From positions 496,001 to 560,000 of the forward strand of contig NZ_JAHVJQ010000002.1 in NCBI RefSeq assembly GCF_019801145.1: 64,000 nt of DNA, given 5' to 3'. Below, in pieces: positions 12,734-19,961 of the stretch. Made by a program: the position numbers and the translations under genes. The first letter of the stretch is position 1, and each line of letters opens with the position of its first letter. This stretch comes from Leisingera aquaemixtae (GTDB lineage: Bacteria > Pseudomonadota > Alphaproteobacteria > Rhodobacterales > Rhodobacteraceae). The notes beneath the pieces are model-generated. The model was not told the origin of the DNA, ran no database searches, and saw only the letters and a list, made by a program, of their open reading frames with translations.

Positions 12734-13141
12734 ATGTGCGATAAGGGGATTGCTGTGGCGGTCAAGGTTTTGCTTCTGGAAGATGACGATGGGGTAAGAT
12801 TTACCTTCAGCATGGCTTTGCAGGATGCCGGGTATGATGTACGGCCCGTCTCCAGTTGTGCAGAAGCAATTGCCGCGCTGGCCGACTTTGAGCCGGGCAT
12901 CCTGATCCTGGATCTGAAGATTGGTGAAGAAACCTCGCTTCCAGTAGCGGATTACGCTGCCCTTCTGCGCCCGGATATTCCCGTCGTCTACATCACCGGC
13001 AGCCGGCTGTTCACCGGCGGAGAGCTCTTCGGGCTGAGCCGCAACATCCGCTGGGTGCTGCACAAGCCGGTTAACCTGACCGACCTTCTCAGCATGGTTG
13101 ATTACGTGACGAGCAAGGCGGTTTCCGCGGAAGCGAGCTGA
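12734..13141 (+). CDS. single-domain response regulator
   Basis: A stand-alone receiver (REC) of 135 residues, or 128 if translation begins at the GTG at 12755, which has AAGGGGA five bases upstream and gives MAVKVLLLEDD. The acidic pocket (EDDD), the phospho-acceptor aspartate in ILILDLKIG (D60 in the longer form), the threonine of YITG and the lysine of LHKPV (K111) are all present, so it should be phosphorylatable. No output domain. It ends 20 bp from the 3' end of the convergent PAS histidine kinase, its most likely partner. Confidence 0.88.
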   Translation: MCDKGIAVAVKVLLLEDDDGVRFTFSMALQDAGYDVRPVSSCAEAIAALADFEPGILILDLKIGEETSLPVADYAALLRPDIPVVYITGSRLFTGGELFGLSRNIRWVLHKPVNLTDLLSMVDYVTSKAVSAEAS

Positions 13142-13161: not shown

Positions 13162-14307
13162 TCAGCTGAAGGAAATGGTGAAGACAGCGCCTTTTCCGGG
13201 TTCCCCATCGGCAAGGAATTTCCAATTGTGCCGGCGGCAAATTTCGGCGCAGGTCGAAAGCCCGATGCCGCTGCCCTCGATTTCGCGGTGGGCACGATGG
13301 AAAGGCTGGAGGATAAGCTGCTTGTCCTCTGGCGCGAAGCCGGTCCCATTGTCGGCAACCGAAAGCTCCCACCGGTCCCGCTCTGCACCATTCATCCGGA
13401 TCGAAATTTCAAGAACCCGCTCCGGGTGCCTGTACTTGATCGCATTGGACAGCAGGTTGGTCAGGACCAGATGCAGCAGGGTCGGGTCCGCATGGAGCCT
13501 GAAACCGTCGCCTATGACCCGGAACTTTCCGCCGCAGGCTTCGAGCTCCTGCGCCAGGCTCGTGCAGGCCTCAGAAACCGCGTCCTGAACGGTGATTTCC
13601 TGAATGTTGATCCCGGCGGATGTGGAGACCGAATGCTCCAGCAGTTCGGTTGTCAGCCGGTCGATCTGACCGGTGGCCCGGGTCATGTGCTGCAAGAACT
13701 CCCGCGCCGTGTCAGGCAGCCCTGCGGCGTAGTGTTCGGAGAAGAACTGCAAGGAGCCAGCCAGAGTGTTGATCGGTGTGCGCAGATCATGAGAGGCCGC
13801 ATGGGCAAAGGCCTCCATGGACAGGAGTGTTTCCTGCAGCTTCAGGTTGGCATCCTTGGCGTTGCGCAATTCACCGCGCAACTGGCTGCGCAGTTCGTTC
13901 ATATGCCGCAGGGAGTCCACGGTGACCCGCAGCTGGTCGTGTGTCAGCAGGATGAGCCGTTCACCCCGGGTGTCGGCCCGCAGCAGGGAGACGCGGAATT
14001 CCGTTTCCGATGATCCATTCGTCCGGATGCCGCTTGCCATCGGCAATGTTGCAACGCCGTTAGCCGTGCCATGCCGGAGCCTTTCGATCACGCGGTCCGG
14101 TTCCAGCAAGGTCAGGCTGCTGATGCAGCTGCCGCTAAGTGCCCCGCTGTCTGGCGCTATTGCGGGTGCAAAGCTGCGCTCAGCCCGCCGGTTGCAGACC
14201 AGGATGCGGCCGTACCAGTCAAGGATGAAAGAGGCATAGGGGGATGCCAGAAAGGCGCTCGCAAGGAGGTTGGAGGCCGGGCTGTTCACCTCTGCAGTCA
14301 CTGGCAT
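13162..14307 (-). CDS. PAS-domain sensor histidine kinase (soluble)
   Basis: A 381-residue kinase without membrane segments: N-terminal PAS-like sensor (about residues 10-115), a short coiled linker (LRSQLRGELRNAKDANLKLQ), a HisKA dimerisation domain with the phospho-accepting histidine in ASHDLRTPIN (H173), and a HATPase_c domain with N box NLLSNAIKYR, G1 DNGTGFA and G2 GSGIGLSTC. The start is the ATG at 14305-14307; a GTG 93 bp upstream would add an unconvincing Cys/Arg-rich leader. It follows the CheR-PAS gene by 129 bp. Unlike its upstream neighbours it appears intact. Confidence 0.88.
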   Translation of the reverse strand: MPVTAEVNSPASNLLASAFLASPYASFILDWYGRILVCNRRAERSFAPAIAPDSGALSGSCISSLTLLEPDRVIERLRHGTANGVATLPMASGIRTNGSSETEFRVSLLRADTRGERLILLTHDQLRVTVDSLRHMNELRSQLRGELRNAKDANLKLQETLLSMEAFAHAASHDLRTPINTLAGSLQFFSEHYAAGLPDTAREFLQHMTRATGQIDRLTTELLEHSVSTSAGINIQEITVQDAVSEACTSLAQELEACGGKFRVIGDGFRLHADPTLLHLVLTNLLSNAIKYRHPERVLEISIRMNGAERDRWELSVADNGTGFAPEDKQLILQPFHRAHREIEGSGIGLSTCAEICRRHNWKFLADGEPGKGAVFTISFS

Positions 14308-14436
14308 GCACCCGCAGGATGCATGCCGTCTGGCTGCAGACAGCGGCAGGCGGCACAGAGCGGGTCCTGCTGGGGTGACGGTGCCCGGCTCAGGCGCCAC
14401 TGCAGCAAGCGCTTTCCTTTACCGTACACCCGCGGC

Positions 14437-17175
14437 TCACTCCGGTCCGCTGCGGTAGAGCTGCAGTCCGCCGAAGACATGTGTCGTACGGCCCGCTTTG
14501 TCCCGCCTTGCCCGTGCGAACAGCTCCCCGCTTGCGTAGCTGCCGTCGCTGGTGCGCAGCCGCAACTGGTAGTGGAAGGACTGCCCTATCGTCAGCACAT
14601 CTTGCAGTCCGTCTTTTATGAAGTCCCGGTCCTCCTCGTGAACACGCTCCAGCAGTTTTTCCACCGACGGAACGTCTGTGCCTTGTTTATAGCCCAGCAG
14701 GCCGTACATCGGCGGGTTCCAGACCGGCACGTTGTTCATCACGTCGAAGGAGAAAATACCGACGGACAGATGGTTCTGCACCGCAACGCTGCATCCGAGC
14801 ATCAGGTCGCGCTCGTCGAATTTGGCCTTGTCCCAGCACACACCGATCAGCTGGATGTTTTCGCCATGCGAATCCTGGAACACCATCAAGCTGCCGGCAA
14901 TGTTCAGGGTGTTGCCGGTATCGTCAAAGAACCGCGCCTCGAATTCGAAGGAGCCGCCGTCGACAAACAGCCGGTCCAGTCTTGATTGCAGGCTTGTGCG
15001 GTCCTCGGGGTGGACCCTGGCCAGCAGGCCGTCGAGGCTCAGGCCGGCTGTTTCATCGTCGATGCCGAGAATGGCGTGGGATTCGGGGGAGAGATATGTT
15101 TCGTCGGTTTGCAGGTTCTGGGTCCAGAAGCCAACCCGCGTGACCTTGCTGACCAGCCGCAGGACGTCATTGAAGGGCTCATTGTCGAACCGGGTCACCG
15201 TAATGGAGAGGCCAATCAGCTTTTGGTGCAGGTCCAGGACCGGGGAGAGGATCAGAGTATAGTAATCGCTGCCGGACAGGACCGGAATGCGCCGGGTTTC
15301 CTGCAGCCGAAGCACTGTATTTGCGATCGGCGCCAGGGCCGGAAAACCGCTGGGCAGATGGCAGTGGCTAAGGTGCAGGCCGGTTGGAGGAAGTTCGCCA
15401 ATGCCGAACACATCCTGCGCCACGCGCGACAGCCGCCGGATGATCAATGCCTGATCAGCCAGGGCCACGGCATAAGGCGAAGATGCCAGCATCGCTTCCA
15501 GCTCGGACGCCAGCGCCTGGCGCTCTGCCGAGCTGATCTGCAATTCCTCGTTGACGGTCAGCAATTCCTCATTGGTGGATTGCAGCTCTTCGTTGGAGGT
15601 TTCCAGCTCTTCATTGGTGGCCTGGAACTCCTCGTTGGTGGATTGCAGCTCCTCGTTTGAAGACTGCAGCTCCTCGTTGGCGGTCTGAAGTTCCTCAATC
15701 GTCTGTTGCAGCGCCTCCTGAGTGGAGCGGATTTCCAGCTCCATCCGCTCGACATACTCGCGCTGATCGCGGTCGGAGATTTCCTCGAATTTGAGTTCTT
15801 TTTCTTCCTCGAACTTGGAGTTGATTGCCAGCAGGCAATGCACCTCGCCGCCCTTGTGGTTGAGGAAGGGGAACGCCTGGAGCTGAACCCGGTTGCCGGT
15901 GGGCAGGGAAACGCTATGCCAGCGCCCATCGCGGCGCTCTTCGTTTCGGATAGACACCGCGATCAGGCTGGAGGCCTCGCTGCGCAGCGGGTCGATCAGC
16001 ATCTTCACGTTCAGCGAGGTCGACATTCCGGCCCGGATCTCGCTGTAGACGCTGATATCGCCCAGGACCTCGATGATGTCGCCATTGCGGGTGCAGATCA
16101 GCCCGTTGGGCGCCACGGACCGCGCAAGAGAGAGTTCAGCCTGCGCAGCCTGCTCTGCCGCTGCCTGTGCCGCAGACTTCCGCAGGGTGCGGGTTCGCAG
16201 GTAGGAGGTTCCGGGTGAGCTCGAGGAAACGGTCAGTTCGCCGGAAATGCCGCGGCGCTTGCCGAAGATCTTGTCCGCACCCTGACGGGCTTCGAAATAG
16301 ATACCCATCTCGCCCACGGTTTCGGACGTGCCCAGGAACAGCAAACCGCCCGGGGCCATCGAATAATGCAGCCTGGTGAGCACCCGTTCCTGCAGCGCCA
16401 GGTTGAAATAGATCAGAACGTTGCGGATGGTGACCAGGTTGACATTGATGAAGGGCGGATCCTGGAACACGTTGTGGCGCGAAAACAGTGTCACGCTGCG
16501 CAGTTCCTGCCGCACCGTGATTTCGTTCTCGCCAAGGACAAAATACTCCTTCAGGTAGTTGGGAGGAATATCCTGGGCCGCGGAGATCGGGTAAATCCCC
16601 TTCCTCGCCACTTCGATGGCGTTCTGGTCGATGTCGGTGGCAAAGATCTGAACGTTGTTCTTGGTCAACGCGTGAAGGCCGCCCAGATACTCTGCTATGA
16701 GAATGGCAATCGAATAGGCTTCTTCACCGGTGGCGCAGCCAACCACCCAAACCCGGATCGGGCCAGGGCCGTGGTTTACCAGCTGCTTCTCCAGATGCTC
16801 ATTCAGCTTGCGGAATTGTTCCGGGTCGCGGAAAAACTGGGTGACCGAGATCAGCAGATCGCGGTGCAGAGCGTCGACCTCGTCGAGGTTCGTCCGGCAA
16901 AAATCGACATAGCTCTCATAGTCTTCGATACCCAGCGCCGTCATCCGCCGGGCAATCCGGCGGTTCAGGGTGTTTTCCTTGTAATTGGCAAAATCAACCC
17001 GGGTGCGGGCCTGGAGGATGCCGAACAATTCGCTAAGCTTGCTGGGTTCGCCGGCAGCGGGCCGCAACTGGTCCAAGTTGCGGGGCTGGGCAAGAATCTT
17101 CTCAGTATGCTCGCCAATCTGTTCCGGTGTCAGGGTCAGATCGATGCAGCCGGTTTCAATGGCCGAGACCGGCAT
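14437..17175 (-). CDS. CheR methyltransferase - coiled coil - PAS protein (downstream part of a broken CheB-CheR fusion)
   Basis: From the first ATG after an upstream stop codon (17173-17175), this frame encodes 912 residues. Contents: the tail of a CheB domain (residues 1-20, MPVSAIETGCIDLTLTPEQI), a complete CheR-type SAM methyltransferase (about 45-310; SVTQFFRDPEQF, VWVVGCATGEEAYSIAIL), an eight-heptad EELQxxN coiled coil (about 493-545), and PAS-like segments to the C-terminus. CheB-CheR-PAS fusions are usually sensory proteins tied to histidine kinases, and here a kinase follows. The upstream CheB part is in the same reading frame but separated by TAA at 17248-17250. The ATG has only GACGGA directly in front, a poor ribosome site, so expression depends on reinitiation or readthrough. 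Confidence 0.85.
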   Translation of the reverse strand: MPVSAIETGCIDLTLTPEQIGEHTEKILAQPRNLDQLRPAAGEPSKLSELFGILQARTRVDFANYKENTLNRRIARRMTALGIEDYESYVDFCRTNLDEVDALHRDLLISVTQFFRDPEQFRKLNEHLEKQLVNHGPGPIRVWVVGCATGEEAYSIAILIAEYLGGLHALTKNNVQIFATDIDQNAIEVARKGIYPISAAQDIPPNYLKEYFVLGENEITVRQELRSVTLFSRHNVFQDPPFINVNLVTIRNVLIYFNLALQERVLTRLHYSMAPGGLLFLGTSETVGEMGIYFEARQGADKIFGKRRGISGELTVSSSSPGTSYLRTRTLRKSAAQAAAEQAAQAELSLARSVAPNGLICTRNGDIIEVLGDISVYSEIRAGMSTSLNVKMLIDPLRSEASSLIAVSIRNEERRDGRWHSVSLPTGNRVQLQAFPFLNHKGGEVHCLLAINSKFEEEKELKFEEISDRDQREYVERMELEIRSTQEALQQTIEELQTANEELQSSNEELQSTNEEFQATNEELETSNEELQSTNEELLTVNEELQISSAERQALASELEAMLASSPYAVALADQALIIRRLSRVAQDVFGIGELPPTGLHLSHCHLPSGFPALAPIANTVLRLQETRRIPVLSGSDYYTLILSPVLDLHQKLIGLSITVTRFDNEPFNDVLRLVSKVTRVGFWTQNLQTDETYLSPESHAILGIDDETAGLSLDGLLARVHPEDRTSLQSRLDRLFVDGGSFEFEARFFDDTGNTLNIAGSLMVFQDSHGENIQLIGVCWDKAKFDERDLMLGCSVAVQNHLSVGIFSFDVMNNVPVWNPPMYGLLGYKQGTDVPSVEKLLERVHEEDRDFIKDGLQDVLTIGQSFHYQLRLRTSDGSYASGELFARARRDKAGRTTHVFGGLQLYRSGPE
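15541..15696 (-). repeat. 21-bp tandem coding repeats (EELQSTN heptads)
   Basis: About seven to eight degenerate 21-bp units encode heptads such as EELQTAN, EELQSSN, EELQSTN, EEFQATN, EELETSN and EELLTVN. This is the signalling coiled coil between the CheR and PAS parts and is characteristic of the CheB-CheR fusion family. Confidence 0.9.
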
Positions 17176-17247
17176 TCCGTCGTATTTCGCAGAACCTGGC
17201 TCTTGTGCAATGGTAATCCCGCCGCCTTCGCGGATTGACGGTAAGCT

Positions 17248-17691
17248 TTAGCTGTCATCACTGCCGGTGCCTGCCAGAACGATGCTAACGCAGCGTTCTC
17301 CGCACTCTTCGGCAATGCTTTTGAACAGGGGGTCGGCGAATGGCTTTGCAGATGCCGGGTGCTCTGCGGGATCGCGCAGACGCAGCTTGCTGCCCTCAAA
17401 CGCCACATCATTGTCTGGCGGCGCGATGTAAATGGTGCCCGGAACGGGGTCGGTTTCGCCGTCCAGTTCCACCACCGGCAGTGTTGCTTCGCGGGCAATC
17501 AGCGAAGTCAGATCGCTTTTTTGGGAGGGCGAAATTTGCTGGGCGATCACATAGATGGTGTTGTCTGTACGGGGGAGATTCTTTACCAGAAGCAACAGCG
17601 CCTCCAGACCGTCAGCGGAGGAGGCAATACAGGCTACATGGAGACTGCTGTTGTCCGCACCGGCTTTTGTGTCCTGTTCCAGGTCTTCCAT
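17248..17691 (-). pseudogene. truncated, degenerate CheB methylesterase domain
   Basis: The 147-residue piece starts MEDLEQDTKAGADNSS at the ATG 17689-17691 and ends at TAA. It is recognisable as CheB: IASSADGLEALLLLVKNLP corresponds to the GASAGGLEAL serine block, IAQQISPSQKSDLTSLIAR to the VQHLSPDHKSLLAELLAR block, and IVLAGTGSD to the aspartate block. The serine and aspartate remain, but the catalytic histidine (QH) is glutamine (QQ), so the esterase triad is broken even before the premature stop removes the last strands. It lies between the frameshifted receiver gene and the CheR-PAS frame. Confidence 0.75.
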
Positions 17692-17718: not shown

Positions 17719-18159
17719 TCAAGCACACCTATCCTGCCTGCAGCTTTCCGCCGACGGCTCCAGCCAAGCTATGCGGTGGCGCAATAATTGTCGATCATCT
17801 TCAGCAGTTGGCCCTTGTGTCACCGGCTTGGGAGCAAACCCGTTCATGCCCAGCCCCTTGACAATAGCATCGTCGTGATAGGCTACATCAGCGGTCACCG
17901 CAACGATCGGCAGACTGCTGGGGGGATCGACCGGAGCAGCGCGAATTTGCCGAGTCGCCTCGACCCCGGACACCCGCGGCATGTGCAGGTCCATAAGCAC
18001 CAGACCGTATTCGTTCGGCGCGCTGCTGAGCATGTCGATGCTGGCTTGACCATCTTCGGCAATTTCAACGTCAACCCCAAGCGCCACAATGATTTCTCGC
18101 ATCATGTATCGCGTGAATTCGTCATTTTCGACGAGCAGGACTTTCCGCGGGTTGTTCAT
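17719..18159 (-). CDS. single-domain response regulator with frameshifted C-terminus
   Basis: A receiver domain of 146 residues as it stands. Key residues are present: acidic pair in VENDEF, phospho-acceptor D57 in LMDLHMPRVSG, T in AVTAD and K111 in APKPVT. After T114 the expected last helix is missing and an odd tail (QGPTAEDDRQLL and onward) is read instead. Removing one base at 17817 restores KGQLLKMIDNYCATA and a stop at 17769-17771, a normal REC ending of about 129 residues. A one-base insertion in the ACAC run is therefore likely. It heads the minus-strand signalling cluster with the CheB/CheR gene and the kinase. Confidence 0.75.
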   Translation of the reverse strand: MNNPRKVLLVENDEFTRYMMREIIVALGVDVEIAEDGQASIDMLSSAPNEYGLVLMDLHMPRVSGVEATRQIRAAPVDPPSSLPIVAVTADVAYHDDAIVKGLGMNGFAPKPVTQGPTAEDDRQLLRHRIAWLEPSAESCRQDRCA

Positions 18160-18431
18160 CAGCTGGTTCCGTCTGTGCTGCGGCTGCGATCAGAAACAGG
18201 TATCCGGTCACGGCATTGTCTCGAGGGTGACCAAGCCGGCTCCTCAGTGGTTCCGCAAAGTCAGGTGTTTCAGCGGGATGGCCGACCTTGGGTCCCACTG
18301 GCATCATGGGACTCTTTCAACCTGCGGCCAACGTGTCCGAGCCGGCCGCAGATCTTCTTTTGGGTGATTTGTAGCCCGTAACACACTTTTGGCGGTATTG
18401 TTCTGGTAAGCCCTTCAATCCGCGGCGTTTA
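18160..18431. other. gene-free spacer between the signalling island and ubiB
   Basis: About 270 bp with no supported gene. It should contain the promoter for the leftward signalling cluster and the 3' end of the ubiE-ubiB transcript; I see no strong terminator hairpin or promoter boxes. Confidence 0.4.
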
Positions 18432-19961
18432 TCAGGTCAGCAAGGCGATGACGGCAAAGATCCCGGTGGCGCCGGCCGCGCCCAGAACGGCAGGAGCCAC
18501 CCAGCTTCTGTTGCTGACAGGCCGTATGCCATTCTGCGCGGCCTGCGCGATCAGCGCCTGTTCCACCAGTGCGGGCAGGCGGGGACCAAAGCGGGCCATC
18601 ACCTTGGCGGTGTCCAGCAGGTCGGTGACGACAGCGCGGGGGCCGATGGATTTCTTGATATAATCCTCGACCACCGGCCGGGCCGCCTCCCAGATGTTGA
18701 TACGCGGATCGAGCGAGCGGGCGACGCCCTCGACCACCACCATGGTGCGCTGCAAGAGGATCAGCTCGGTGCGGGTTTCCATGCCAAAGCGTTCGGTCAC
18801 TTCGAACAGGTAGTTCAGCAGGCGGCCCATCGAGATCTGCGAAGCGTCCATGCCGAAGATCGGCTCACCCACCGCGCGCAGGGCGCGGGCGAATTCGTCG
18901 ACGTCCCGGTTTGCGGGCACATAGCCGGCCTCGAAATGAACCTCGGCCACGCGTTTGTAGTCGCGCTTGATGAAGCCATAGAGAATTTCGGCATAAACCC
19001 GGCGGGTGTATTCGTCGATGTGGCCCATGATGCCGAAGTCGTAGGCAATGATATCGCCGTTGGCCGCCACCTTGAGGTTGCCCTGGTGCATGTCGGCGTG
19101 GAAGAAGCCGTCGCGCAGCGCATGGCGCAGGAACAGAGACAGGACACGGTCAGCCAGCAGCTTGCGGTCATGGCCCGCCGCATCCAGCGCCTCATTGTCG
19201 CCGAGCGGAATGCCGTCGGCCCAGCCCATAGTCATCACCCTGCGGGCGGAATAGGCCCAGCGGATTTCGGGCAGCTGGAAGCCTTCGTCCTTGGCTGTAT
19301 TGGCAGCAAATTCCGAAGCTGCAGCGCTTTCCAGCCGCAGGTCCAGCTCGCCCTGCACAACGCCGTCGAAATGCTCGATCACATCCATCGGCTTCAGGCG
19401 GCGGGCGCCGGGCGCGAACAGGTCAACAATGCGGGCGGCAAAGTAGAAGGCATCGACGTCCTTGTTAAAGGCGCGCTCAATGCCGGGGCGCAGCACCTTG
19501 ACGGCCACTTCCTCGCCGGTTTCCTTCAGCGTTGCCCGGTGCACCTGGGCGATGGAAGCGGCGGCGATCGGGTCGCTGAAGTCAGAGAATATCTCGGAGA
19601 CCGGGCGGCCCAGCTCCTTTTCCACTTCGGCCAGCGCCGCGGCGCGAGAGAACGGCGGCAGCTTGTCCTGCAGGACACGCAGCTGGTTGGCCAGATCCTT
19701 GCCCACAACGTCGGGCCGCGTCGAAAGCACCTGGCCGAACTTGATGTAGGCAGGCCCCAGCGCGTTCAGCGCGCGGGTTTCGGGCGGCATCAGCGGATCG
19801 CCCTTGTAGCCCAGCCATTTGAACGGCCAGCCCAGCAGCCGGGCCAGCACCCGGATCGGCTTTGGCGCCTCGAACGCCTCCAGCACCGAATGCATGGCCC
19901 CGGTGCGCTCGAAAGTGGCGCCTGTGCGGATCAGGCGCAGAATATTATGAGGGCCGCGCAT
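18432..19961 (-). CDS. ubiB: UbiB-family atypical kinase (ubiquinone biosynthesis)
   Basis: UbiB is a membrane-associated ABC1/ADCK-type protein kinase-like ATPase needed for ubiquinone synthesis. The 509-residue protein contains the KxGQ signature in AYIKFGQVLSTRPD, the alanine-rich nucleotide loop AAASIAQVH, the catalytic block FFHADMHQGNL and the metal-binding DFGIMG, and ends with a hydrophobic pair (WVAPAVLGAAGATGIFAVIA). The ATG lies 3 bp beyond the ubiE stop, so ubiE-ubiB is one operon. Length is normal. Confidence 0.95.
   Translation of the reverse strand: MRGPHNILRLIRTGATFERTGAMHSVLEAFEAPKPIRVLARLLGWPFKWLGYKGDPLMPPETRALNALGPAYIKFGQVLSTRPDVVGKDLANQLRVLQDKLPPFSRAAALAEVEKELGRPVSEIFSDFSDPIAAASIAQVHRATLKETGEEVAVKVLRPGIERAFNKDVDAFYFAARIVDLFAPGARRLKPMDVIEHFDGVVQGELDLRLESAAASEFAANTAKDEGFQLPEIRWAYSARRVMTMGWADGIPLGDNEALDAAGHDRKLLADRVLSLFLRHALRDGFFHADMHQGNLKVAANGDIIAYDFGIMGHIDEYTRRVYAEILYGFIKRDYKRVAEVHFEAGYVPANRDVDEFARALRAVGEPIFGMDASQISMGRLLNYLFEVTERFGMETRTELILLQRTMVVVEGVARSLDPRINIWEAARPVVEDYIKKSIGPRAVVTDLLDTAKVMARFGPRLPALVEQALIAQAAQNGIRPVSNRSWVAPAVLGAAGATGIFAVIALLT

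Follow-up and report, generated by a model that had tools for sequence, protein, structure and literature searches.

Does the single stop codon inside a CheB-CheR-PAS hybrid sensor gene of Leisingera mark the accidental breakage of that gene by one mutation, or does it belong to a longer history? The question is raised by the window, the 64,000-nt stretch of Leisingera DNA analysed here, in which CheB, CheR, coiled-coil and PAS regions occupy one minus-strand frame (17691-14437) interrupted by a lone internal TAA. The piece before the stop encodes 147 residues, and beyond it 936 codons stay open to the stop at 14437-14439. Pfam analysis placed positions 2-123 of the 174-position CheB_methylest profile before the TAA, ending at residue 145, and the remainder (130-172) directly behind it, followed by CheR_N, CheR and PAS. 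The window gene therefore no longer encodes all domains of the hybrid in one chain, since the TAA follows codon 147. The gene belongs to a module located between ubiB and a thiolase gene, in the order RR1, CheB-CheR-PAS, histidine kinase and, on the opposite strand, RR2. The CheR_N and CheR profiles (48.3 and 167.3 bits) are found in one frame together with a GCATGEEAYS motif matching that of relatives, and CheR is a predicted methyltransferase.

Features of the split sensor gene and its module (window positions; strand relative to the window)
Feature	Position	Strand	Evidence or remark
RR1, single-domain receiver	17719..18159	-	+1 frameshift near 17811-17820; ends 27 nt before the CheB* start
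CheB*, truncated CheB esterase domain of 147 aa with Gln instead of the catalytic His	17251..17691	-	Pfam CheB_methylest 88.6 bits, residues 21-145; alignment to 1chd and 1a2o; sister of the SS27 piece
In-frame TAA	17248..17250	-	Aligned codon identical to the TAA closing the SS27 CheB piece
Codons 149-151	17239..17247	-	Three residues invariant in 12 compared taxa, altered in the window; best-supported end of the altered tract (after 151)
Codons 153-172, stretch of the CheB tail that separates the stop from the first usable start	17176..17235	-	Conserved at the amino-acid level, with change at synonymous sites
First ATG downstream of the stop (a conserved Met in the CheB tail)	17173..17175	-	No Shine-Dalgarno-like pairing found
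CheR_N and CheR methyltransferase domains	16282..17031	-	Pfam; omega 0.08 on the window branch, codons 205-470
Coiled-coil stretch	15493..15804	-	EELQ/TNEE repeats in the translation; weak SMC-like match
C-terminal PAS domains	14461..15141	-	Pfam PAS_3 and PAS; FixL-type PAS match
Module histidine kinase, open frame	13162..14400	-	Constrained, omega 0.116
RR2, single-domain receiver, open frame	12734..13141	+	Constrained

The CheB piece, designated CheB* in the form common to the window and strain SS27 (genome G013), scored well above the profile cut-off of 24 bits. At codon 52 (17536-17538) it carries a Gln aligned with the His of the solved structures 1chd and 1a2o, which we take to be CheB of enteric bacteria and whose aligned Ser, His and Asp we take to be the catalytic residues. 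Ser and Asp were retained and His was not, so the piece was considered to be derived from CheB and was not classed as an active esterase. Like the enteric methylesterase, CheB* aligns with residues 2-141 of the 203-residue 1chd chain; unlike it, CheB* has Gln for His and is without the last ~60 domain residues, the domain being incomplete because the final part of the profile falls after the TAA. Of 56 related loci examined, two gave no alignment and the 54 others (in which L041 and L094 are one gene counted twice) had His in 53 cases and Gln in one, that of SS27. Judging from these residues, CheB* is presumably devoid of esterase chemistry. The original prediction had noticed the frame-internal TAA, a gap-free CheB sequence around it and the Gln in place of the catalytic His, and the frame, Pfam and structural alignments confirm all three; the His loss, said to have preceded the stop, is older than a recent accident. 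A search for a CheB* donor on plasmids recovered 224 matching records, every one below 60% identity.

To see whether the gene is natively a fusion, the ubiB-to-thiolase stretch was mapped in 21 genomes of the genus, matches of at least 40% identity being considered. The CheB-CheR-PAS gene, the kinase and RR2 were present in 12 of them; among them, G011 and G015 gave no RR1 match in the stretch. CheB-CheR-PAS formed one open frame of 1,094-1,156 codons, free of internal stops, in nine genomes (G018, G001, G014, G007, G017, G019, G011, G015 and G008), so that nine of the 12 genus genomes matched by CheB have it in a long frame; the gene is broken in the window, in G012 (one TAG) and in SS27. At the family level, CheB was matched at E<=1e-25 in 25 of the 394 genomes searched; leaving the window aside, each of the remaining 24 had it within a frame of at least 842 aa. 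Homologues that are natively two genes, which would have spoken against a broken single gene, were thus encountered neither among these 24 genomes nor among the nine fused orthologues. The fused Leisingera hybrids share with the window the ubiB/thiolase locus, the domain order and 76-85% identity after the stop, and differ from it in having one frame with Ser, His and Asp kept, whereas in the window the frame is split and Gln replaces His. One of the module-bearing records (L041, G008), titled Nocardioides marinus DP1N28-1, grouped within the Leisingera set, and its name is probably wrong.

The module was broken or missing in 12 of the 21 genomes. G004 (L062) has an open RR2 beside a small CheR remnant with several stops and is a later stage of module loss. 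RR1 alone remains in G020 and G009, and six genomes (G016, G005, G006, G010, G002 and G003) have no part of the module in the ubiB-to-thiolase stretch; none of these eight had a match elsewhere at E<=1e-30 for CheR-PAS or E<=1e-6 for CheB. One of the six, G016, is nearest to the window in ubiB (98%), and a tree of ubiB plus thiolase joins the two with weak support (62). The allele of strain ANG1 (G012, L037) resembles that of the window in that one stop interrupts the CheB tail while CheR-PAS stays open downstream. It differs in that its TAG lies 22 codons further on, separated from the conserved ATG by two codons, and in that CheB before the stop is unaltered (omega 0.09). This TAG (L002/L037) arose independently of the window TAA. 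Its bases give a Shine-Dalgarno-like pairing (-4.0) just before the ATG, a stronger pairing than any of the 12 other scanned taxa has.

The history of CheB* was approached through the other carrier found, SS27 (L043/L063). The SS27 CheB piece is 161 aa long and ends in a TAA, both stops falling in the same alignment columns. In trees that took in four Tateyamaria sequences, the window and SS27 CheB were sisters with 99% bootstrap on nucleotides as well as on amino acids, and the approximately unbiased (AU) tests rejected the three alternative trees tried (p<=0.028 for nucleotides, p<=0.003 for amino acids). Eight derived residues (N14, C21, D27, L33, T45, Q52, D60 and P121) occur only in these two and are absent from the 16 other aligned sequences; among 66 genus pairs the next one, the tree sisters G011 and G015, shares six, and the remaining 64 share at most one. 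Third positions alone reject a place of SS27 CheB in the G018 clade (p=0.0019), but do not group it with the window, three trees remaining. At four-fold degenerate sites 19 of 44 are identical between the two.

The rest of SS27 looks different. Behind the stop it resembles G018, with 90-95% identity in six 40-base steps from 17160 to 16921 (after codon ~178), versus 39-78% across the CheB tract (17720-17241), in which SS27 is not close to the window either (50-80%). With CheB* in an otherwise G018-like module, SS27 is a clear mosaic, and its CheB* is a recombined tract. Its allele thus shares with the window the CheB* tract, the Gln, the aligned TAA and a damaged 3' end of RR1, and departs from it in its G018-like CheR-PAS, kinase and RR2, in the absence of the piece from the stop to codon ~178, in a further frameshift in the last PAS and in the additional loss of the Asp. 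In the window, the RR1 frameshift replaces the last residues and extends the frame to 17719; in SS27 the RR1 stop is lost and the frame also continues towards CheB. RR1 is thus damaged at the 3' end in each of the two carriers, as would suit a recombination junction in about that region. No flank in the window shows import directly, CheB four-fold identity to the genus being 0.50 versus 0.51-0.56 for other segments. Since the SS27 junction falls at the stop itself, the common TAA could also be a coincidence.

Selection was studied with codon models, from which G004 and the Tateyamaria sequences were left out throughout, as were G011 and G015 for RR1. In a first analysis on a 13-taxon tree, with SS27 left out of the CheB-to-PAS models, the window branch had an omega of 0.32 (free branch length) or 0.28 (shared) in CheB before the stop, versus a background of 0.065. 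For the part after the stop it was 0.067 versus 0.087, far from neutrality (2dlnL against omega 1, 208.5). Twenty-five positions at which the other 12 taxa are invariant carry a different residue in the window: 17 ahead of the stop, three directly behind it at codons 149-151 and five elsewhere. A changepoint scan on the same alignment without SS27 bounded the altered evolution best after codon 151; a changepoint at the internal ATG was 2.1-3.5 lnL worse and one at the CheB domain boundary (194) 5-9 lnL worse (multipliers 5 and 10), the 1.92-lnL interval with multiplier 5 covering codons 150-170 plus 175-179 and 208-209. When the altered part was modelled as fully neutral, the optimum fell after codon 60, at a smaller gain (12.3 versus 25-28). 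None of the 12 other terminal branches gave such a pattern (largest gain, 2.35). An omega of 1 along the entire window branch was rejected for CheB.

Inclusion of SS27 as sister changed this picture. The omega of window CheB* was then 0.072-0.075, that of SS27 0.41, and most of the 0.28-0.32 signal shifted to the branch shared by the two, so that relaxation of CheB in the window lineage was abandoned. These values assume the sister relation. Window omegas of 0.03-0.15 lay within 2dlnL 3.84 in the likelihood profile and 0.2 lay outside; the estimate was 0.08-0.10 when the shared branch was forced to a lower omega. The shared branch itself, of near-zero length, had a point estimate of 34, which could not be told apart from 1 (2dlnL 2.7) but exceeded the background (2dlnL 24.3), denoting an excess of amino-acid change. 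Almost no synonymous change was fitted there (length 0.01-0.23), which leaves room for convergent amino-acid change. Given common descent, the window CheB is an old dead variant that has been constrained and not now decaying, and a succession of relaxed active site first and nonsense later does not hold as a simple decay: most CheB change belongs to the two-species branch, after which the window evolved at about the background rate. Separate dN/dS values for the two parts, which the original prediction proposed, showed that CheR-PAS has stayed under selection, while the relaxation of CheB disappeared with SS27.

Constraint was also evident in the kinase (0.116 versus a background of 0.139) and in RR2 (omega 0.135 versus 0.094, not different). 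The RR1 values, 0.165 versus 0.084 and not different, speak neither for nor against a change there. Evolution free of constraint, as expected of a pseudogene, was seen neither after the stop (0.067) nor, given SS27 sisterhood, in CheB* (0.075), and loss of gene function may be very recent. A neutral simulation of stop codons gave a probability of 0.32-0.67 of finding no stop, too weak to discriminate.

Taken together, these data favour, with slightly better than an even chance in our judgement, a mosaic and newly split sensor in which an old, dead, stop-terminated CheB* is joined to a normal CheR-PAS. The CheB half of the hybrid would have been replaced by a catalytically dead, truncated allele bringing its own TAA, which would have spread among Leisingera species by homologous recombination, the mosaic being visible in SS27 and its import into the window lineage presumed. 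The tract would be joined at two points, one within or behind the RR1 3' end and one just past the stop. That a lone point mutation broke the gene is too simple, as the CheB piece and its aligned TAA are common to SS27, codons 149-151 are altered as well and RR1 is frameshifted. Normal selection acted until recently on CheR-PAS, the kinase and RR2, so the split is presumably young in the window lineage. Instead of one sensor chain, the cell would make a 147-residue CheB-like fragment and, from a weak internal start, very little CheR-PAS at best, its expression being presumably low, and the probable fate of the module would be silencing or loss, as elsewhere in the genus. What speaks against this account is that CheB* is constrained in the window lineage, as debris would not be.

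Such constraint would be expected if CheB* was a dead esterase domain still fused to CheR-PAS and kept for its structure. The window TAA would then be a recent nonsense mutation of its own, the SS27 stop would have arisen independently at its junction, and the gene would simply be newly broken. Low omega in CheB* (~0.075), in codons 153-172 and in the rest is what a working fused protein predicts, SS27 was re-joined exactly at its stop, and G012 demonstrates that a single TAG can occur with an unaltered CheB. We nevertheless hold this account to be doubtful, since window and SS27 have TAA as their stop at one and the same aligned codon and since codons 149-151 are altered too, the tract ending close to the stop and not where the CheB domain ends.

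The short tail behind the stop bears on the age of the split. Across codons 153-172 the window departs from the other taxa at no invariant column, while synonymous change is present; omega is 0 for codons 157-172, and constraint over codons 153-172 was preferred to a 5- to 10-fold rise by 2.1-3.5 lnL, which is moderate evidence from 20 codons. An old split with a start at 17175 would leave these codons untranslated and eroded, so either the stop or tract is recent or the stop is bypassed; their conservation suggests that the split is probably young in the window lineage, or bypassed. Excerpts of PMC7918605 report in-frame stops with dN/dS below 1 to be widespread among bacteria and, for the most part, short-lived, in keeping with a young split. 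As to bypass, a scan detected no Shine-Dalgarno-like pairing upstream of 17175, an argument weakened by the CheB start at 17691, which itself scores just -1.0. The ATG lies 72 nt after the stop, and in an excerpt of PMC10666635 a distance of ~20 nt nearly abolished termination-reinitiation; 72 nt exceeds what was tolerated there, so reinitiation is little supported. No RNA element or structure was found behind the stop, folding being unremarkable (z 0.11 and -0.06) and Rfam giving no match. Bypass by readthrough or an internal start therefore has little support, and the initial opinion that it would be unusual biology agrees with the missing pairing and, within what the PMC10666635 excerpt covers, the distance.

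These observations bear directly on the idea of a long-lived functional split, in which an old stop is tolerated, CheB* persists as a separate dead CheB and CheR-PAS is made through TAA readthrough or internal initiation. Such an arrangement would explain why both sides of the stop, the kinase and RR2 are constrained and why CheB* is as diverged at four-fold sites as species are, and bacterial genes having in-frame stops and dN/dS below 1 figure in the PMC7918605 excerpts. With no recognisable pairing before the ATG, a distance to it well above that of the PMC10666635 excerpt, no structural or Rfam signal, further damage to the last PAS of SS27 and a frameshifted RR1, we find it rather improbable. 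An elaboration is improbable as well: CheB* would be a long-lived, horizontally exchanged pseudoesterase with its own stop, CheR-PAS being produced by TAA readthrough or from a non-canonical start within codons 153-172, so that fission and esterase loss would have turned a reversible methylation sensor into a methyltransferase-only one. A sequencing or assembly error creating the stop in an intact gene, the dull alternative considered at the outset, is very unlikely despite an assembly in 50 contigs, since another species' assembly has TAA at the same aligned codon, adjacent codons differ, no base run exceeds three at the stop and the contig is 593 kb long.

The locus suggests that an apparently isolated nonsense mutation may mark where a recombined tract ends, and that selection can continue to act on a dead CheB domain. 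If CheR-PAS is still made, it would be a natural test of the need for the esterase half in CheB-CheR hybrids, and Leisingera, with its patchy module (intact, split, remnant or absent), lends itself well to comparative work on a hybrid sensor. The matches listed by an open-access literature search were mostly unrelated, and among them none described a CheB-CheR-PAS hybrid in Leisingera, which is no proof of absence.

Upstream of the CheB* tract, the 5' part of RR1 and the sequence before it (18001-18600) showed 84-96% identity to G012, versus 45-80% for the other ten relatives, which suggests a separate recent exchange with the G012 lineage.
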